From Candidatus Altimarinota bacterium (GTDB lineage: Bacteria; Patescibacteriota; Gracilibacteria; BD1-5; UBA6164), in NCBI GenBank assembly GCA_028697205.1, contig JAQVFO010000006.1, positions 1-64,000 of the forward strand: a DNA stretch of 64,000 bases, read 5' to 3'. Below, piece by piece: positions 3,473 to 32,340 of the stretch. Each line of letters starts with the position of its first letter. Position 1 is the stretch's first letter. The position numbers and the translations under genes were made by a program. The notes below the pieces were generated by a model. That model ran no database searches, was not told the DNA's origin, and saw only the letters and a program-made list of their open reading frames with translations.

Positions 3473-5767
3473 ATGCCAAACCTACAAAAAATCCTACAAG
3501 AAAAATTTAAATTAGAAGAGTTTAGAGAATGACAATTAGAGATAATTGAAAGCGTCATTGCATGAAATGATACTCTTGTTTTTATGCCAACTTGATGAGG
3601 AAAATCACTAACTTATCAATTCCCTGGAGTTATGAGACCTGGACTTGTGATAATAATCTCCCCTCTTATTTCTCTTATGAAAGATCAAGTGGATAAGTTA
3701 AATGAGTTAGGACTTAGAACAGAGTTTATAAATTCAAGTATTTGAGTTACTGATAAGAGGTTTATACTTGATGAAATCAGCCAAAATATGCCTGATGAAG
3801 TTTGAGGAATTAAATTTCTATACATAGCTCCTGAAAGACTCAACGATGAACACTTTTTAAGAGTTATACAAAGCGTAGATATATCACTTATAGCTATCGA
3901 TGAAGCTCATTGTATAAGCCAATGGTGACATGATTTCAGACCAAGTTATATGAAGATAAAATGATTTATAGATAGTTTAAGACAAGAAAATCATTTTCCA
4001 ATAATTGCATTAACAGCAACAGCAACAAAAAAAGTAAGAGCTGATATAGTAGAAAGACTTTGACTTAAAAATTACCACATATTTACAAAATGATTTGATA
4101 GAAAAAATCTTGTTTTTATAGTTCGTGAAATCACAAAAAAAGAGGAAAAACTTAAAAAAGTTTTAGAAATTATAAAAAAAACTCCACCATATTGAATAGT
4201 CTATTGTTCATCTATCAAAGCCGTAAAAGAAGTATATGATTTTTTAAAAGAAGAGTGAATAAATGCTTGAATCTATACTTGAGAAATGAATGCAAATTCA
4301 AGAGAATCAGAACAAAACAATTTTATGAACTCAAGTTATGATGTAATAGTTGCAACAAATGCTTTTGGTATGTGAATAGACAAAAAAGATATAAGATATG
4401 TAATTCACTATAATTTACCATGAAGCATAGAAAACTACTACCAAGAAGCCGGAAGAGCTGGAAGAGATAGGAAAACAAGTTATTCTATAATAATAGCTTC
4501 ATATCAAGATACAATTATCCAAGAATTCTTTATAGAAAATGCTTACCCTCCAAAAGAAGATATACTTAAACTTTATGATTATTTTTACAAAGACTTCAAA
4601 TTATGAGAATGAGTATGAATACAAATACTTAAAACCTATGCAGTAATAGCAAAAGAAAGCTGAATAAATTGAGATATGAAAGTATGAAGTATCATAAGAA
4701 TATTTGAAAAATACTGAATAGTAAAAAGATGATTTGATACAGATGATAACACTTCTGATTTCAGATGAAGATGAATAACTCTTTTATTATGAAAAAAAAC
4801 AACAAAGGACATCCCTATTTTATGGAATCATCAAGACGTACTAAAAAATGAAAGTTATTTCAAACTTGAACAAATAAAAAAACTTCTTTTCAAACCATGA
4901 TGTAGAAAAAGATTTATTTTAGAGTATTTTTGAGATGAAGAAGATTTAAGAAATTTATGAGAAACTTGCTGAGTTTGTGATTACTGTTTAGATAAAAAGA
5001 AACTAAAAGAAACTGTTTTCAAAGAAATAGTTCCTACAAATGTGTTTTTTATAGTTTTGGAATTTATAAAAAAACTAGATGAGAAATTTTGAGCAAATAT
5101 TTTAGCTTCAGTTCTTGTTTGAAGTAAAGAGAAAAAGATTACAGAATGGAATCTAGATTTAAATCCCGATTATGCAATTTTGGAAGAATATAATAAAGAT
5201 ATAGTTATGTCAGTTTTTGAAGTACTAATTGACGCTTGATATCTGTATAAATCAGCATGACAATATCCAAAAATCTGATTAAGTGAAAGATGAAGATTAG
5301 CTATTTTTAGTAACAATGTTTTATTAGATGAAAAAGATGAGTTACATGAAAATCTATTTATGAAAGCATCTAGATTTCTAAACAAGGAAAAGGAAGCAAA
5401 AAAAGAAAAAGTAAAAAAACTAGAAAATGTTCTTAAAATAGAAAAAATAGATACACTAACTCAAACAGAGGAACTTTATGATAAATGACTTTCAATTGAA
5501 GAAATAGCAACTCAAAGAGAACTAACAAAACAAACTATAGAATGACATATTGTATCACTCTACAGTCTTGGAAAAATTCCATTACAAAAAATTATGAAAA
5601 TTTCAGAACTTGAGAAACTTAAATTTATTAAAGATTTTCTACTAAATTCACAAGTAGAAATAAATAAATTATCAGAAATAAAAACTGAAATAGATAAAAA
5701 AAGAAAAGATATAAGTTATCTAGATATAAAAGTTTGTCTAGCAATGATTGAAAAAAAAGATATATAA
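3473..5767 (+). CDS. recQ: ATP-dependent DNA helicase RecQ
   Basis: 764 aa, 3'-5' superfamily 2 helicase for repair and fork processing. Motif I is MPTGGGKSLTYQ (two of the three Gly are TGA), motif II IAIDEAHCISQWGHDFRP, motif III ALTATATKK, motif V VIVATNAFGMGIDK, and motif VI QEAGRAGRD. The RQC zinc-binding part is seen as PGCRKRFILEYFGD with CGVCDYC at about residues 470-510, followed by a winged-helix region. The last ~230 residues are a charged helical tail (LTQTEELYDKGLSIEEIA) resembling a helix-turn-helix/HRDC-like ending. Starts at the first ATG with an A-rich leader. Confidence 0.95.
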
Positions 5768-11538: not shown

Positions 11539-11614
11539 GCTCCCGTAGTTCAGTTGGAAGAACGCTAGGCCGCGGACCTAGAGGTCGTGGGTTCGAGCCC
11601 TGCCGGGAGCACCA
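11539..11614 (+). tRNA. tRNA-Arg, anticodon GCG, CCA encoded
   Basis: Seven-bp acceptor stem GCTCCCG/CGGGAGC, D arm GTTC..GAAC, anticodon stem CTAGG/CCTAG with loop CCGCGGA, T arm with TTCGAGC, discriminator A and encoded CCA (11612-11614). Standard numbering puts the anticodon at 11572-11574 = GCG (Arg, CGC/CGU). A20 in the D loop fits arginine identity. Odd: position 33 is C instead of the near-universal U, and bacteria normally use ACG here. Confidence 0.9.
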
Positions 11615-11876
11615 TTAATGTAATTATTAACACCTTTAGAGGTGTTTTTTGTTTATCTAAGCTATTTATGACTTCCTCACTATAAGAAGAAGCAACATTG
11701 AACTTAAATACTACTTCAATTTCCTTTATTCACTCATCATCATAATAAATCAAAATCTTATCAACTAGTATATCTACTAATCTCATTTTCTTCTTAAAAG
11801 CATTTAAGCCATATTTTAGTTTTATTGCTCATGATAAAATAGTAATAAATAAATTATTACCAAAATACTTATTGTT
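11565..11876 (-). pseudogene. Remnant of serine recombinase C terminus, running into tRNA antisense
   Basis: Open frame of 103 codons bounded by TAA at 11877-11879 and ending TAG at 11565. It reads FKKKMRLVDILVDKIL then IYYDDEGIKEIEVVFKFN, the pattern of the extreme C terminus of large serine recombinases. It then continues through the terminator and antisense across the 3' half of tRNA-Arg (MVLPAGLEPTTSRSAA), an ending commonly seen where a recombinase gene abuts a tRNA integration site. The catalytic N-terminal domain is absent. Probably a scar left by an integrated element; a short expressed protein from ATG 11786 is not excluded. Confidence 0.5.
11629..11651. terminator. Terminator after tRNA-Arg
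   Basis: Hairpin AACACCT-TTAG-AGGTGTT followed by a T run, 15 nt after the tRNA CCA. Confidence 0.75.
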
Positions 11877-12036
11877 TTAGCAAACAAAAAAGGACAACTT
11901 ATGTGCTTTTGTTTGCCAAAACAATAATTTTCAGACCCTACGAATACAAAGGATGAGAAAATCAGCAACATAAGTTACCCTTTACTATATTCGTATAAAG
12001 TCTGTTTATTTGTCATAAAAAATTATTATTTTGGCA
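11869..12036. repeat. Structured non-coding element with alternative stems and complementary loops
   Basis: Hairpin A: 21-nt arms 11869-11889 and 11907-11927, 20 of 21 paired. Hairpin B: CAGAC plus TACGAATA at 11932-11946 against TATTCGTA plus GTCTG ending 12004. Loop A holds AACTTATGT (11896-11904); loop B holds its exact complement ACATAAGTT (11968-11976). A third element, AAAATTATTATTTTGGCA (12019-12036), can pair with 11914-11931 (17 of 18), enclosing hairpin B but excluding hairpin A. No open frame explains it. May be an RNA, a recombination site, or an element end. Confidence 0.6.
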
Positions 12037-12427
12037 GGTTGATAATAATAATTTTTTTTAAAAGTAAACACAATAAAAAGCTATTTTTTTTAAATAGCTT
12101 TTGTAATATAATTTTTTATCTTTTTTACATCTGATTCAATCATTGTAATTCTTTCTTTACAAGTGAACCTTAAGAGTCATTTAGCATGTGTCCTTCATGT
12201 GTTTTTTGTGTCTTTTTTGTGTTTTTTCTGTGTCTTTCTAGTCCTTATTTGTATCTTTTTTGTGTCCAAAAGTACCTTAATTTTAATAAAAAGATCGAAT
12301 TATCACTATTGTGAAAACATATTTTTATTTATTTTAAGCTATTTTATCTTTATAATATATCATTTTTCATTTTAATTTTACAAAATAGGATCACTTTAGC
12401 TCACTTTAGACACATTTTAAGTGATTT
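12037..12427. other. Non-coding stretch, low-complexity GTGT-T6 repeats
   Basis: No convincing gene. Contains a U-tract hairpin (12075-12104) and, at about 12186-12266, an imperfect run of GTGT(C/T)TTTTTT units such as GTGTCTTTTTTGTG. A short minus-strand frame ending at TAA 12092-12090 (TCKERITMIESDVKKI) lacks a clear start and may be a gene remnant. Confidence 0.4.
12075..12104. terminator. Hairpin terminator
   Basis: AAAAAGCTATTT and AAATAGCTTTT arms around a T-rich loop. Confidence 0.55.
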
Positions 12428-14677
12428 TTATATATTAATATCAACTTCTATCCCAAGCTCTATTTCAATCATTTGATTTATCTCCTTATGTATATCAATA
12501 TTATCATCTTGTTTAATATCATCTATTGATACTATTAGAGAATAATTCTGTGCATAATCTTCTGGAATTCAAAACATATCAAAATTTTTACACTCACATC
12601 TCATTTCTATTTCCCAAAATTTTCACATATAATTGTTATTTGTACTTACTTCTACAAATGGATATTTTTTTGCATTTGATTTCAAGTGATTATCTTTTGT
12701 AGACCTATTATTTAACTCTCTTTCCTCAGAATTGCTTTTTTCATCTGGACGAATTACACATGCTGATAGTTTAATTGGATTATAATTATCAAAGTCTCTT
12801 GGAAAAACCTTAGGATTGTATACTAATGTTTTTCTAATCCTTAATCTTTTTCTAGATGATCATTCTAAACTCTTTGGTATTGGTATACGGACCCTCTTAG
12901 TAGTATTTATAGAAATTGAGTCTTCTAAAATTAATGTTGAAGAAGTGTTTATAGAATACATAGCATGTTCTATATTAGTCTTTCAAAATCAGTTAAGTCT
13001 TTTTCTCATATCAGTATCAACTATTTTATGTCATATATTTCAATCAGAAAAATGTAATAGTATAGCCTTTATAGAATTATTATTGTATTCTGGATATAAA
13101 TTATGTAATACCCCTGCCTCATAGGTTACTAATGGAGTAGCAAAACTTGTTCAACAAGAACGTGTAAGATTATCTTTTCAAGATATAGAATCGGCTAAGA
13201 GAATACCATTTCACTCAGACTTAAATTTAGCTCAAGAAACTATCAAATTACTATCATAATTTACTAAATCTGGTTTAGTAAATAAGTTATTATCAATATT
13301 TTTCCTAGTTATAGGAGAAGGATGTAACATAGGAGCAATAGAATTTGGACTCTCTTGATAAGTAATAGATCACACTGATATATTATTTATACTATCAGCT
13401 GGCGGTAAAATATTTGTAAATGGTAATTTAAAGTATTCAGGATATCAAATACTTATTGCCATAGGTTCCCAAGCAGGGGGACATAACTTGAATAAATTTC
13501 AAACGGAAACAAAAAATATACAATTATACTTGTGGCTTAGTTCATCTAAAAGTATTGTAAGATTACTTCTTTGTGAAGCATCATAAAGTTGATTTCAATA
13601 GTCATTTATTGATAAATTTATTAATAATAAAGGATAAACATCTTTATATTTATATACAGCATCAACAATACTTTCCTCTAACTTATTAAAATCGACTTCA
13701 ATTGTAATAACACTATTTTTCTGTACTATATCGTCACTTGGTGATAAACTATAACCACATACTGCTAAACTTGCAACAGCTGTGGAATGAAATGTATCAC
13801 TGCTTGATAAATTATTTACTTCAATAACAGCTCATTTTATAGTTTTATGTTCTATTTCACATGTTCAATCTATTACAAATACTGGTTTTACTGATGGTTG
13901 AGGTGAAATTACAGAAATACTATTCTCAAATATATCAGTTCATGATGTCTCATAATAATATATAGGGGCTGAAGATATATCTATAATCTCATTAAATTGA
14001 TTAACCATCGTCTCCAATTCCCTGAAATTTAAACTTAATCTACAAAAATGAACCAAGTCTGTGTTTACCTTAGATATAAAATTTGTAGAATATTCATCAT
14101 GTATCAAATCAATTTTATTTTCTACTCAATTATGTTCTGAAGAAGAAAATGAAATATCAACTACTTTTTTATGACTAGGATTCTTTTCATAAAATTTCTT
14201 TAAATCGTTTCTCAATATTTCCTCTATTGATAAAGGTTTTATTTCTTCAATCTTTTCAAAATATGAATGTAAACTACCAGTTCCAGCATATGTATTTATA
14301 TCATGTTCTAAACGATCAAAATCTGACTTCTCTTGACCTGTTATCTTTTTTGTACTAATACTCCCAATTATGGTATTTTCTTTCCCTTTACGCTCATATA
14401 TTTCTATATTATATTTTTCTAACATTGAGTTATTAGGCATTCCATAAAATTTAATCTTCAATTCTCCGAAATCCTTATCTTCTTCTATTTTAAGCTCTTG
14501 TTTTTTTATAAGAAACTTCTCTTTAAGACCTATTACATCTCTCTGGATTTTCGGTTTTTGAATATTATAGTCTATAATTAATTCCTCTATAGGGGGACGT
14601 CTAGAGATAGGAATATATTCTAATCAATTACTTACTAACCCTTTAGGAATTTTAATATGTTTATATTTTTTTATCAT
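12428..14677 (-). CDS. ietS: Subtilisin-like (S8) serine protease, IetS-like
   Basis: 749 aa. Catalytic triad of family S8 in order: D270 (FVIDGTCEIEH), H297 (SSDTFHSTAVASLAV) and S511 (CGTSFATPL), with the oxyanion Asn in IFFVSVGNLFKL. The ~250-residue N-terminal part has no recognised fold; a ~200-residue C-terminal part follows the protease. No signal peptide, so it is probably cytoplasmic, unlike secreted subtilases. The AAA+ ATPase gene ends 8 nt upstream on the same strand; an ATPase plus cytoplasmic subtilase is the IetAS arrangement, reported as a plasmid-stability locus and as an antiviral defence system. Odd: the first ~150 codons use GGN for Gly (10 to 1), the rest mainly TGA (19 to 4). 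Confidence 0.8.
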
Positions 14678-14685
14678 ACTATAAA

Positions 14686-15786
14686 TTAAAAATAACTATT
14701 ATAAGAATTTCTATGTATTCATAAGATATTACTTATCTCTACCTTAGAATATTTTGATTCAATAAATGATTTAAATAATTCAAATTTTTTTGGTTCATTA
14801 TTTTTTATCATTTTTATTTTCTTCCTATCAACAAATCATTCTGAAATTAATAATTCTAAAAACTCAGTAAAACCAGCTTTTTCTTTTCCAGATACAACTA
14901 AATTAAATAATAGTTTATCAAAAAATATCCTTACTCAATCAATAGTAATAGGCTCTAAAATTTGAATTATAAATTTTATTTCATCACTATCTAATTTAAT
15001 ATTAAATCATTCAACATTCTTTATTAAAAAAGAAAGAAAACTAACAGCTTCAGTATTGTTCAATTCTCAAATAGGCAATTTAAATGCAAATCTCCTTGAT
15101 ATAGCTAAATCAATAGTTTCAACTAAATTTGTAGAAACTATCACAATTTTATCTTTAGCTTGAAAGTCTAATATTTGTATTATTGCATTTACAATTCTCT
15201 TAAGTTCACCTACATCATTATTATCATTTCTACTCTTAGCAAAAGCATCAAACTCATCTATAAATATAACCTCTTCAGAAGATGAATCAAATAAATTTGA
15301 AAAGTTTTTTATAGTTTCTCAAAATTTAGAAGATATTATATCCGATATCCTTACATAACGTAGTTTCTTTCATAATTTCTTAGCTATGTAAAAACCCAAT
15401 GTAGTTTTTCCTGTCCCAGGAGGTCAATATAATAATATTTTATTCATATGATTCATCCCTATAATTCATAGTTTATTATCATTCTTATAAAAATTAATAA
15501 AATTAGAGAGCTTTTTCTCAATACTGTCAGAAATCCATATTTTACTTGGTAAATAATTATCTATAAAATTTTCTTCTCTTACAACTTCTTTATCTATATT
15601 AAATGATGAATTATCATTATTTAAGGTACTATATTTATTTAATAATTTCTTAATTCAATTATATAAACTATGTTTTCAATTATTAATTTCTTTTACAGCT
15701 AAATCTTCTAAAAAATCTATCAAAATCTTTTTATCTCACTTTAATCATAACTCAGATATTTTAAGTATAGTTTGATAAGTAGCCAT
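14686..15786 (-). CDS. ietA: AAA+ ATPase, IetA-like partner of the subtilase
   Basis: 366 aa. A helical N-terminal part of ~100 residues is followed by one AAA+ module of the FtsH/spastin type: Walker A GPPGTGKTT (G121 to T129, K127), Walker B EVIFIDEFDAF (D177, E178), sensor 1 IVIVSTNL, and arginine finger IDLAISRRFAF. The last ~100 residues are the lid and an unknown tail. It precedes ietS by 8 nt, so the two are surely co-transcribed. By analogy with IetAS it may sense infection or foreign DNA and control the protease (inference). No membrane segment. Confidence 0.82.
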
Positions 15787-15912: not shown

Positions 15913-17682
15913 TTACATAGACAAATATATATCTTGTATTTCATTATTTAAATTTACTAATTCATCTTTCTCTTTAATAATTCTATTCTCAAAATCATTT
16001 TTATTCTTTAAGAATATTGATTTATACATAAATAAATTTAAATCTCATTTTATTTCTAAAGGGCAATATCATGTCAATATTGCTTTTAATCAATAATTAA
16101 AGAAGTTACTGTATAATCATTGAAAATTACCAATACCTTTTGGTACAAAATTATTAAATTCCTTAATAAATAAATTATAATCAATTCCATAATAATCACA
16201 CTTCACATTATCTATAAAAGTAATAATATCATTTATTTTTTTCATTAGATTATCATTTGACCTAACAAACTCATAAGGAATAATATGTGCAAAATTTTTA
16301 AGTACTTTATTAATTGATGAAAAAAATCAGTGTATATTTTTATCTTTCCAATTTTTCGTTAAAAGTGTTTTATTTATCCACTGAAAAGAATCTCATGATT
16401 TTTTTCTTATTAAATCTTTATCAATATCTATTTTAACATTTACTGCAATAATAAATTCAGTTATCAATCTAATTAAATATATCTTTGCATATTCAGGTTT
16501 AACATACTTATATTTATTGATATTTTCTTCATAAATCTTAATATTTTCTCTATCTTGCAATATTCATTTAAATTCTTTTATTTTTAAATCTGCATATTCT
16601 AATTCTGATTTACTTAAATGAAATAATTTATTATCTCAGCTTACAAAAAAATCTTCATTTAGTTCTTGTTCATTTATGTGAAGCAAATTATAGTTAAATA
16701 AATGGAAGTCTCCTATGGTTTTAGTATGTACTAATTCTAATGTATAATGTTCATCATGATTAAATGGTGAGTTTTTTTTATAATTTTTAAACTCTTCTAT
16801 TGTAAAAAAAAGTGAATCATCATATAAAATTTTACTTTTGGCACACACAAATTTTGTTTTAATTGTTTTAGGAATATGTAATCAATCTTGTGAGATTAAA
16901 TAAATTATATTTTGAAATGTAGAAACTTTATTATATAAACTAATACTCTTTTTATCAATACTCTTTTTATCAATACTCTTTTTAGAAATATCATATGATG
17001 ATACTATCCTACTTAAAAAATTTCTAGTATTGATATCTGTATCTCTATAATAAAAATTACTAGTATCTCAAATAAATTTACATCAATCATCCAGTTCTTC
17101 TTCTATATTTATACTTTTTTCTTTTAAATTATTCTTATCATTTTTATATTGTAACCCTATAAACCATATATCTTGTATTCATAATTTTATATAATCATTA
17201 TGTCTCAACTCAAATTCTTCTTCTGTAATATTTGAATATTGTATTTCATAAGCCTGCTTATATAATAACCCTTCATATATAAATTCAACATATACATCTG
17301 CAACTCTATTTATATTTAATTCTTTGTTTATAAATTGATATTCTTTAGATAGTTTAATTAATTTAAATTTTAAAGAAATATCATTTATTCACTTTAATAA
17401 ATTAAAAATATATTCTTTTGATTTTTTATGTTCAATACTTTCTCATTCAGATGAGACTTTATTTGTACATACTGAATTTGGTCTATGAGAATAATGTTTT
17501 TTTCTCCAGGTTCAATCCTTATTTTGTATATTAGATCATCTATAAATAACATCTTCCTTGCAATATGGACAACATATATATCATTTATTACTTATATTAT
17601 AATCATCAATATCAATAGTATCTCAAGATAATCTATTTATAGCATAAGGAATTTTATTACAAAACTTATCTAAATCTGACAT
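15913..17682 (-). CDS. CoiA-like protein with predicted PD-(D/E)XK nuclease
   Basis: 589 aa. N terminus has a zinc-binding pattern CCPYC (37-41) and H63/H66/C72, then SIEHKKSKEYIFNLL, as in competence protein CoiA. The nuclease core follows: R126-A-D129 (INRVADVYVEF), then E146-I-Q148 in AYEIQYSNITEEEFELRHND and YIKLGIQDIWFIG, matching the CoiA active-site layout. The remaining ~400 residues are unlike classical CoiA, so this is a long variant. Classical CoiA acts in natural transformation; long CoiA-like nucleases beside other nucleases suggest defence. A 15-bp tandem repeat lies mid-gene. 126-nt gap to ietA. Confidence 0.7.
16942..16983. repeat. In-frame 15-bp tandem repeat (2.8 copies)
   Basis: Unit AATACTCTTTTTATC repeated head to tail inside the CoiA-like gene; on the coding strand it encodes KKSID repeats. 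The unit is a multiple of three, so copy changes would keep the frame. Confidence 0.85.
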
Positions 17683-17830: not shown

Positions 17831-18940
17831 TTAATATCCATTATTATACAATCAAAATCATAAATCAGTTTCCAATAATCATTTTAATGCTTGATTTTTA
17901 CATAAACTATGAACTGTCTCATTTGGAATATTAAAAAAATGACCACAGCCAAACAACTCATCATTATCCACTATTCATGTTTTATTTCAAAGTATAATTT
18001 CATAAACCATTATTCAAAATAATACAATTCTTCAAACTATATTATCTCATATAATTTCAAATATTATTTGATGTCATAAATAAAAATTTTTTCAATTTTC
18101 TTCTTCTTCCATTATTCTCTGTTTAGAAAATTTTATATCATGTCATATATTTATGTCTTCTTTTCATAATATTAAATTCCTAATTCTATCAAAATTACCT
18201 TTATATAGTATATCTTCATTACCACTTTTAATTGCACAATATGAAAAATAATTAAACATTATTTTCATTACCAATCTAAGATTTTCTACTTTAATTTTAA
18301 TTTTTCACTCTATTCTTACTTCTACTCATTCTTTTCTTAAATGTTCGGTAGTTTCTCTTTCAGATTTTGTAATTTTAAAATCATCTTTATAAAGTTTTAA
18401 TAAGCTTACTAAAAAATCGTGTGTTTCATCATCTCAATATACAGAAATACAATTATTTGGCACAGAAACGATAATATCTTTTATTCTATTAAATTTTTCA
18501 TTTTGATTTTTACTTTTATCTTTATTATTATAAGTTATCTTTAAAGTATCAATCAAATATATATAAAGTTTATTTCATTTTTCAATTATAATTTGGGGAG
18601 TAAAAATTATTTTTCATTCCTCATTAAGTATTGGAAATCTCTTATTAAAAAAATCATTATTAAATCAAAAGTCTGCTTTCATATCTAAATAATCTTTATC
18701 TACTTCTATTTTTCATTTATTTTTTAAATCTAGCATATATGAAAAATATCATTCATAACTCGTTTCTTTAAATTTATTTTCTAAATTATCTGAAAAAAAT
18801 GAATTACATTCTTTACAAACAGCTTCTTCTGGTAATCTTTCAATATTAAAAACTCATAGTGTTTTTGACACTATATGTTCTCTTCCATAAAAAACAGTAT
18901 TTGTTTCAGTCTTCAAACAATAAATACATTTTTTATTCAT
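17831..18940 (-). CDS. HNH endonuclease-domain protein
   Basis: 369 aa. N-terminal HNH motif of the two-CxxC type: C5-x2-C8, then G-R-E-H22-IVSKTLG, then C42-KE-C45-N (VCKECNSFF), matching the zinc and H-N pattern of HNH_5-like nucleases. The rest (residues 60-369) is an uncharacterised helical and beta region, with DELFGCGHFFNIPNE near the C terminus. Its ATG is 1 nt after the stop of the DUF4209-like gene, so translation is likely coupled. Probably a DNA or RNA nuclease; target unknown. Confidence 0.72.
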
Positions 18941-18941
18941 T

Positions 18942-20717
18942 CTATTTTTTTATTTTAATAAAAGTAACAAGCACAATAAATATATGTACTACCCTAAGAA
19001 CTACATGATAATCAAAAAATTTTTCTTTATTAATCCCATGACAAAAATCATTTCTTAAATTTAATCATAGTCGTTCAGATAATACAACTTTAAAATAAAA
19101 CATAAAACTCTCTGTGAAAAGATCAATAAGAATCTTATCATTTAGAATCTCTCCAAGAGTTTTATTCATAAATCACCCATTTCTTTCATCTTCTTTTTTT
19201 ACATTTCATCAATTTAAATGAACTATTTTTCTAAACAAACTTTCTATTAATGGAATTAATATTCCTACTAATGAATAACTATTTTTATTATATAAATTAT
19301 CTACTAATTCTTTAATTTCCATCTCATTTTCTCACTTTAATATATCACATGTATCCATTAAGTAATTATAAAAATCTTCTTTCCTTATATTTTCTATAAA
19401 GTAATCAAAAATTATTTTTAAAAAAACATTACCAAACCCTATACTTTGAGATGCCTCATGAATTAACTGTTTTTCTGGTTCATTTAATCATGATAATGTT
19501 CCTACTAATCATCATTCACTGTCTATGATATAAGTTGAAAATATACTATTTAAGGGATATTTTCTTTGATTTTCTTCAAATTCTTTTTGAGTTTTATTTC
19601 TTGATACAATAAAATTTTTACTTATTAACCACATAATTTTTTGTAAATCATATGAATTATTTTCTCAAAAAAATCATTTAATATAATCATTTATTTCATC
19701 TTCAGTAAAATTGGTTGAAAAAGAAAATGTCTTTAATCATTTAGTTAAATCAACTCAATTAATCTTTTTAATCACTTCATCTGCATAATCTTTTAAATTA
19801 TATTCTTGATATAATTCTAGTAATCATTTTAAATGATTCACTTTTAATAAAGGATCTTTATCTTTTTCAATATTTTTATTATAGATTGAAACTAATTTAC
19901 TAAAAAAATTATTAAATGATTCACCTGAAATTTCTTTTGTTTTCTTTAATACTGGAAGAGCCTTTTCAATTATAAAAATATTTGGAAGTTCTTTTTTTTC
20001 TTCAATTTCAATTCTATTAATTATATTACTTATTATCTGATTTTTTTCTTTTACATCAATCTGTAATCATTTATTATCATTTACAAATAAATCAAAAGAG
20101 ATTCACCACAATCACATATTTTCATTACATTGCTGATCTTCATATCTTATAATTATATCTTTTAATTTATGAAAATATTCTTTATTATTATAAGTTTTAG
20201 CGAAAAAAACGGCTCTCATTAATTCTCTCACAAGATAATACTTTTCTTTAATCAATCAGTTTTCAAATATATATATAACACAATCAAGATATTTTACAAT
20301 AAATCTATAATCTACATTTTTTAATCCTAGTTTATTTGAAAAATCAACTGATACACTTATATATCTTGCAATTAGAATAGGATTACTTGATTCATCAGCC
20401 CTTTTTAAAAAATAATTTATAACTCCTTGATCTATTTTATTTATATGTGGATATACATTCATTATATTTTCATCATCCTGTGATGGTAATATATACATAG
20501 GTCCATAGTAAGTTCACCAATTAAAAAAATCTTCTTTAGACTCATCCCATGAATAATCCTCAACAAAATCAAATAACATCTGTTCTTTTTTTATTTCATC
20601 GTTTATTTCTATTTCATTTTTTGTAAATTCCCTTATTTTAGATGATACTTCATAATAAGATTCAATAGGAACAATATTATTATCTAATTCTTCCAAAAAA
20701 GTTTTAAATTTATTCAT
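18942..20717 (-). CDS. DUF4209-like protein with C-terminal RNxxxH (HEPN-type) motif
   Basis: 591 aa from ATG 20717 (MNKFKTFLEELDNN); an ATG at 20744 would add nine residues. Long all-helical protein. The C-terminal region (IESLFRKIVHLNGGNVKK, then KTLGEILND, then SERLGLNLRNDFCHGINKEK) matches the end of DUF4209-type proteins. R555-N-D-F-C-H560 fits the RNxxxH active site of HEPN ribonucleases. First gene of the island transcript, coupled to the HNH gene. A toxin or RNase role is inferred from the motif only. Confidence 0.6.
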
Positions 20718-20744
20718 ATATTTTTTTGAAAATAAACATAACAA

Positions 20745-31029: not shown

Positions 31030-32154
31030 CTACATCAATTTTTTAAATATATCTACACTATCAAGAGCTTCCCAACTTACATCATTTCTTCAAAAGTGTC
31101 AATATGAAGCTGTTTTTTGAAAAATTGGCCTTTTTAAATCAAGCTTTTTGATTATACCATTTTGTGATAAATCAAAGTTTGATTTTACTGCTTCAATTAT
31201 TTTTTCTCTTGCAACTTTTTCAGTTCAGAAACAATCTACAAAAATAGAAACAGGTTCAACAATTCAAATAGCATAAGAAAGTTGAATTTCACATTTATCA
31301 CAAATACCTGAAGCAACTATATTTTTTGCAAGATACCTAGCAATATAAGCTCAACTTCTATCAACTTTTGATGGATCCTTCCCAGAAAAAGCTCATCCTC
31401 AATGTCTTCCAACTCATCAATAAGTATCAATTATTATCTTTCTTCAAGTTAAACCACAATCTCATTTAGGTCATCAGATTTCAAAAAGTCATGTAGGATT
31501 TATATGTAAAATAGTCTTTTCATCAACTAGATTTCACAATATTGGCTTTATAACTTCATTTATTATTCATTTTTTTATCTCTGATTGAGTTATATTTTTT
31601 CTATGTTGATTTGAAATTACAACAGTATCTATTCTAACTATTTTTCAAGCATCATACTCAACAGTTACTTGTGTTTTCCCATCTGGTAATAAGTAAGGTA
31701 AAGTTCAATTTTTTCTAACTTCTTCCAATTTCTTTGCTAATCTATGTGCAAAATAAATTGGTGCAGGCATATATGTATCTGTCTCATTTGTAGCGTAACC
31801 ATACATTATTCCCTGATCTCAAGCTCATCATATATCAACTCATTGAGCTATATTTGGTGATTGTGTATTTATAAGCAAATGTACTCATACATCATTTCAA
31901 TTAAAAGAAGCTTCTTCTTCATTGTAACCTATATCACAAATTGTTTTTCTAACAACTTCATTATAATTCACTTTTGCTTTTGTAGTAATTTCTCCTGATA
32001 CAATTACAGTTCAAGTTGTAACTAAACTTTCACAAGCAACACGAGAGTTTGGATCCTCACTTAAACATGCATCAAGTATAGCATCACTTATCTGATCACA
32101 CATTTTATCAGGATGCCCACTTGAAACTGATTCAGAAGTTATATAATATCTCAT
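31030..32154 (-). CDS. metK: S-adenosylmethionine synthetase
   Basis: 374 aa, normal length. Makes SAM from methionine and ATP. N terminus [20 protein letters not shown] carries the ATP-binding His; [12 protein letters not shown] follows with TGA-encoded Gly, and the central catalytic loops (FLINPTGFF-like and [16 protein letters not shown]-like regions) are present further on. Controlled by a SAM-I riboswitch and terminator in its 5' leader, so expression falls when SAM is plentiful. Confidence 0.95.
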
Positions 32155-32208: not shown

Positions 32209-32230
32209 AAAATTTCTATTAAATTTAATA

Positions 32231-32340
32231 ATATATCTTTCCTCTTTATAGAGGTAGGAATTAGCACCATAGCATAAAACGCAGGTTGCTGGGGTAATAC
32301 AAACGAGCCTATTCTCTCTTACCCAACTCTTGATATTTTT
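32231..32340 (-). promoter_or_regulatory. SAM-I (S-box) riboswitch of metK
   Basis: Minus-strand leader contains the S-box landmarks in order: ATCAAGAG, a GGGTAA helix and CAGCAACC, followed by GGTGCTAATTCC and a closing P1 strand (GATATATT pairing with AATATC). The adjacent terminator can form only when P1 is stable, so SAM binding should stop transcription of metK. Confidence 0.93.

Follow-up and report, generated by a model that had tools for sequence, protein, structure and literature searches.

Transcription attenuators, such as the trp-type leaders, the T-box, and other terminator riboswitches, combine a 5' leader with strand exchange between stems and U-tract hairpins ahead of the gene. 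In the pseudoknotted preQ1 and SAM-II riboswitches, a leader pseudoknot competes with other pairings to set expression. Restriction-modification (RM) genes are also known to be under RNA control, for example by an antisense RNA in EcoRI. The element described here, which shares these traits, lies on the minus strand from 12035 to approximately 11835 in a 64,000-nucleotide (nt) stretch of a Candidatus Altimarinota bacterium of the Gracilibacteria (contig JAQVFO010000006.1, positions 1 to 64,000; hereafter the window). Comparison with its homologues suggests a family of cis-regulatory 5' leader RNAs that probably function in an attenuator-like manner. The leader most likely acts as an on/off gate for accessory genes, especially DNA-modification (anti-phage) genes.

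In contrast to the known attenuators, these leaders have no conserved leader peptide that we could see, match no Rfam model, and contain a long-range, pseudoknotted terminator-like stem; many copies carry two gates in series, and the genes behind them are mainly accessory or defense genes. Unlike preQ1 and SAM-II, the RNA is far larger, and its 10- to 16-bp pseudoknot helix varies freely in sequence and has no conserved pocket. As in EcoRI, expression of methyltransferase or restriction genes would be under RNA control, but here through a structured sense leader in cis that is common to many unrelated RM and other accessory genes.

Orientation and parts of the window copy

An initial annotation had described mutually exclusive stems and complementary loops at this locus, and both arms and loops were located in the sequence. 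The inverted-repeat arms at 11869-11889 and 11907-11927 (21 nt) are 95% complementary, the second pair at 11914-11931 and 12019-12036 (18 nt) is 94% complementary, and the loop-loop match (AACTTATGT/ACATAAGTT) is present. That annotation had read the wrong strand. Relative to shuffled sequence, folding gave z = -7.2 for the minus strand and z = -4.4 for the plus strand, and the minus strand folds better owing to several G-U pairs that are available only there. With G-U pairs, the loop match on the minus strand comprises 13 bp (11980-11968 with 11904-11892), and the long-range helix that it forms, A/U tracts included, comprises 16 bp (-16.1 kcal/mol). The other pairings of the window copy have predicted energies of -13.6 (1:2), -23.7 (2:3), and -9.4 (1:4) kcal/mol. 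The plus-strand reading, with its weaker fold and no promoter or gene logic, was rejected. The element is also longer than first noted, extending from a promoter at approximately 12068-12042 to a terminator-like hairpin ending at approximately 11835. Its parts are as follows.

12042..12068, minus strand: putative promoter, with -10 TATTAT (12047-12042) and a weak -35-like TTTACT (12068-12063); the position fits the family promoter
12023..12035, minus strand: segment 1, GCCAAAATAATAA, the predicted RNA 5' end; partner of segment 2 (helix P1) or segment 4
11932..12004, minus strand: hairpin B, outer stem 12004-11988 with 11946-11932, apical stem approximately 11978-11965 (-22.1 kcal/mol)
11968..11980, minus strand: 5' strand of the long-range helix, GGGTAACTTATGT, also part of the apical stem of hairpin B
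11910..11927, minus strand: segment 2, TTATTGTTTTGGCAAACA, partner of segment 1 or segment 3, with covariation for both
11892..11904, minus strand: 3' strand of the long-range helix, ACATAAGTTGTCC, indicated by the swap test and by pairing in the alignment
11886..11891, minus strand: U-tract, terminator-like site T1, immediately 3' of the long-range helix
11869..11886, minus strand: segment 3, TGTTTGCTAAAACAATAA, 3' arm of hairpin A (the 2:3 pairing, -23.7 kcal/mol)
11859..11867, minus strand: segment 4, TATTTTGGT, similar to part of segment 2 and a possible partner of segment 1; overlaps hairpin T2
11835..11862, minus strand: hairpin T2 and T-rich run, just 5' of the start codon
11794..11832, minus strand: ATG at the expected place, opening a frame of only 12 codons, MSNKTKIWLKCF, by direct reading of the sequence

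The window copy thus appears to have kept the leader and lost the controlled gene. In the source genome, TGA is a sense codon, as long frames stay open under code 25.

Two mutually exclusive folds under selection

Covariation was assessed in 79 aligned copies (alignment A4) of 81 extracted. Fold X, consisting of P1 (the 1:2 pairing), P4, and the long-range helix, was paired in 96.5% of cells, 198 of which had changed on both sides, while slid controls were 26 to 62% paired. Fold Y, in which hairpin B keeps its apical stem and 2:3 with P4 makes up hairpin A, was paired in 93.8% of cells, 129 of them changed on both sides. For either fold, none of 500 shuffles matched these values. Among the individual helices, P1 was paired in 99.2% of cells across the 79 copies (double-sided change at four of five pairs), the apical stem in 93.6% (covariation at all five pairs), the long-range helix in 94.7% (main block of the alignment), and 2:3 in 93.8% (79 copies). 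The alignment was fitted to a model holding P1, the apical stem, and P4, so that counts for those helices are biased towards the model; it did not include the long-range helix or the outer part of 2:3.

An alignment-free swap test gave a score of 28.4 for the long-range helix with its own partner, compared with 17.2 ± 5.3 for swapped and 13.0 ± 2.6 for shuffled partners. Own and swapped partners likewise scored 29.2 and 16.4 for 1:2 and 26.9 and 19.5 for 2:3. A long-range helix of 10 to 16 bp can form in 78 of 80 copies, the two failures being truncated or degenerate. An additional helix that would join the purine-rich junction to the segment following the apical stem was considered and dropped (78/500 in a permutation test).

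The two folds share strands: columns 86-90 of the alignment have 107-111 as their partner in one fold and 204-210 in the other, while segment 2 takes either segment 1 or segment 3. As one strand has remained complementary to two partners despite sequence change, there is strong evidence for a conserved switch, and the mutually exclusive stems and reversible switching that had been proposed as fitting an RNA are supported by covariation in both folds. The supposed kissing loops are only partly so: the loop-loop helix is real, but it competes with the stem of hairpin B, whose top uses the same 5' strand.

The very strong covariation, with compensatory changes in the stems, argues for a structured RNA and not for a DNA element or chance. 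A recombination site or transposon end, both envisaged by the initial annotation, or a mobile repeat would be in keeping with the inverted repeats, the several copies per genome, and the adjoining tRNA and possible recombinase remnant. We nevertheless consider such a DNA element highly improbable. The sequences drift while pairing is kept, which points to an RNA and not to a DNA-protein site, and the copies stand at a fixed distance between promoter and same-strand gene, with constant promoter and start-codon spacing. A constant site sequence with variable flanks was not found, and the core pattern had no match in 2.9 million viral contigs.

Distribution and novelty

A DNA search of 60 related genomes returned many matches, several per genome. 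A covariance model (R1) built from 20 aligned copies matched 44 of 77 genomes of the window's Gracilibacteria order, with up to nine matches per genome. The source genome holds one copy. Among 286 genomes sampled across the phylum, R1 with strict filters recovered the window's own copy alone. Of 40 genomes taken from the class, those with the element all belonged to the window's order, and the family was not found outside it. A separate pattern scan covering 84,980 species yielded 26 matches, 24 of them in Gracilibacteria or Patescibacteria records.

At the gathering threshold, Rfam 15 had no match over the element in the window or at 14 homologue loci, and only tRNAs and SAM-I riboswitches were found elsewhere. 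Sub-threshold matches to the window were of miRNA or snoRNA type at chance level and were disregarded. No prior description was found in the open-access literature. Sequence comparison thus indicates a new, previously undescribed RNA family, which would act like the known leader attenuators and belongs to none of the families tested.

At locus L030, positions 4750-4857 (+) hold a truncated copy without hairpin B; an intact copy lies 0.6 kb away and another 9 kb away on the same contig. At locus L050, positions 4914-5044 (+) hold another apparently gene-less copy, with a tRNA-like stretch (identified by eye) adjoining on the opposite strand.

Family architecture

On the minus strand, the order of parts is the promoter; segment 1 (GCCAAAA...); hairpin B, with GGGYAACUUA at its top; segment 2 (UUUUGGC GAACA); UAAGUURCCC; a U-tract of five or six residues; segment 3 (UGUUUGCUAAAAC); and the ATG. 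In many copies, segment 4 (UAUUUUGGY) runs into hairpin T2 and a T-run before the ATG. Counted from the first base of segment 1, most of the 81 copies have TTG at -34 and TANNNT at -12, and given this fixed spacing, the RNA is expected to start at approximately segment 1. A same-strand start codon mostly follows 5 to 75 nt downstream of the leader. At the level of the family, the putative leaders thus have a promoter on one side and a same-strand start codon on the other; copies have their own promoter and precede single genes. Comparison of the copies shows a promoter placed for a predicted start at segment 1 and two mutually exclusive folds maintained by selection. It likewise shows a U-tract after the long-range helix, a same-strand gene, and, in many copies, a second hairpin and T-run before the start codon.

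The U-tract is 5/5 T in 75 of 80 copies. The four base pairs of the long-range helix beside it are 86% GC and the next six 20% GC, and such a GC-rich base abutting an invariant U-tract resembles an intrinsic terminator (T1). Hairpin T2 is present in 41 copies; it starts where segment 4 ends (usually GGY or AGC) and itself mostly ends 4 to 11 nt ahead of the start codon. Segment 4 is a better fit to segment 1 than to segment 3 in 35 of these 41 copies and a worse one in 2, and none of 401 permutations reached the 1:4 fit; a pairing of segment 4 with segment 3, being weaker than 1:4, was rejected. A conserved upstream open reading frame was also rejected, as many copies lack the ATG that lies in the hairpin B loop.

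A stand-alone small RNA gene, in which a promoter, an RNA of 140 to 150 nt, and the T1 terminator form a unit acting in trans on other copies, with the upstream position incidental, would account for the promoter, the terminator-like end, and the similar complementary strands common to many copies. This explanation is improbable: when cis and trans partners of the long-range helix were compared within a genome, the cis partner fitted better 129 times out of 152, a same-strand gene start nearly always follows at short distance, and T2 stands right before the start codon, leaving no room for a separate promoter after it. It is unlikely that the RNA serves as a structural 5' cap, a compact pseudoknot shielding the mRNA from 5' exonucleases or keeping the 5' end paired, with the U-tract as a linker. 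The predicted RNA start at the P1 strand would suit such a cap, as would the near universality of the long-range helix and P4 but not of T2; it leaves unexplained, however, the equally strong covariation of the exclusive alternatives (the apical stem and 2:3) and the GC-rich base beside the U-tract.

Proposed mechanism

As an attenuator, the leader would switch between exclusive stems, one followed by a U-tract and one preventing it, an arrangement recognized at the sequence level only. Hairpin B would form first and hold the 5' strand of the long-range helix. If the long-range helix (GGGYAACUUA with UAAGUURCCC) wins, it would create a pseudoknotted intrinsic terminator, T1, at UUUUUU; segment 1 would stay on segment 2, segment 4 would be free, T2 would form, and the gene would be off. 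If hairpin B stays closed, segment 3 would take segment 2, and the freed segment 1 would take segment 4. The 1:4 pairing would disrupt T2, and transcription and translation of the gene behind the leader, often a DNA methyltransferase, would follow. Which fold is "on" is inferred from the layout.

Several observations weigh against an attenuator. A terminator stem inside a pseudoknot would be unusual. Segment 4 and T2 are missing in some copies, so the two-gate scheme is not universal, and an open-ended search found some hairpin and T-run downstream in 62 of 81 copies, little more than the 57% in shuffled sequence; the specific signal is confined to T2 placed together with its segment 4. The window copy has a weak -35, fails a strict sigma-70 scan, and lacks a downstream gene. 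Apart from the U-tract, few unpaired nucleotides are strongly conserved, and no ligand pocket is visible.

Downstream genes

Pfam matches among the genes behind representative leaders include an EcoRI-type adenine methyltransferase, a C5 cytosine methylase, N6/N4 methylases, the Tsp45I restriction enzyme, ResIII, an HNH protein, pre-pilins, a subtilase, and zinc-ribbon/TM2 and other proteins; secreted proteins also occur. Approximately 27 of 81 copies precede RM-type genes, called by a Pfam match or evident similarity to such a match and counting the HNH protein. The order contains 22 EcoRI-type methyltransferase genes, one of which is a fragment without a start, and the leader lies directly upstream of 19 of the 21 that could be assessed (3 of the 19 from unfiltered searches only). 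In genome G031, four leaders (L029, L024, L023, and L017) precede paralogous short proteins starting FLGGLVFLGT..GYTAYTNLA..; the one tested had no Pfam match.

The leader position, alternative folds, and terminator-like sites form the usual platform of a metabolite-sensing riboswitch, here with a pocket made by the pseudoknot, but the probability of such a riboswitch appears low. The downstream genes are very diverse (methyltransferases, pre-pilins, zinc-ribbon and secreted proteins), and the strongly conserved columns are nearly all paired positions, A-tract, or U-tract. With hardly any conserved unpaired bases, a classical ligand pocket is disfavored.

Genomic neighborhood

The tRNA that had been noted beside the element is a tRNA-Arg. 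A short frame (11565-11786, minus strand) resembling the C-terminal end of a serine recombinase runs into the tRNA-Arg gene and is a possible remnant of an integrated element. The recombinase scar proposed earlier is plausible but weakly supported: the similarity is short and to recombinase C-terminal ends only, and a homologue of the fragment was absent from 20 related genomes. Immediately upstream of the leader, PADLOC identified the anti-phage pair IetS (S8 peptidase-like) and IetA (ATPase) (12428-15786, minus strand). Farther on are a CoiA-like protein (15913-17682) and an HNH-like protein (17831-18940), both identified by eye, and a protein matching the PADLOC candidate defense family PDC-S39 (18942-20744, minus strand); together, these last three look like a defense island beside tRNA-Arg. 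Elsewhere in the window, a SAM-I riboswitch (32230-32339, minus strand) precedes a metK-like gene (31030-32154).

Implications

A more specific proposal, which we regard as tentative, is that these leaders form a new RNA-switch class specific to one Gracilibacteria order, with strand exchange coupling a pseudoknotted intrinsic terminator to a second hairpin at the start codon so as to time or trigger the expression of anti-phage and surface genes. This raises the question of whether an intrinsic terminator can work with its stem in a pseudoknot. Gene regulation in Gracilibacteria and other Patescibacteria is almost unexplored, and the occurrence of one strongly covarying RNA architecture before RM and other accessory genes across the order suggests a shared RNA-level control of defense.
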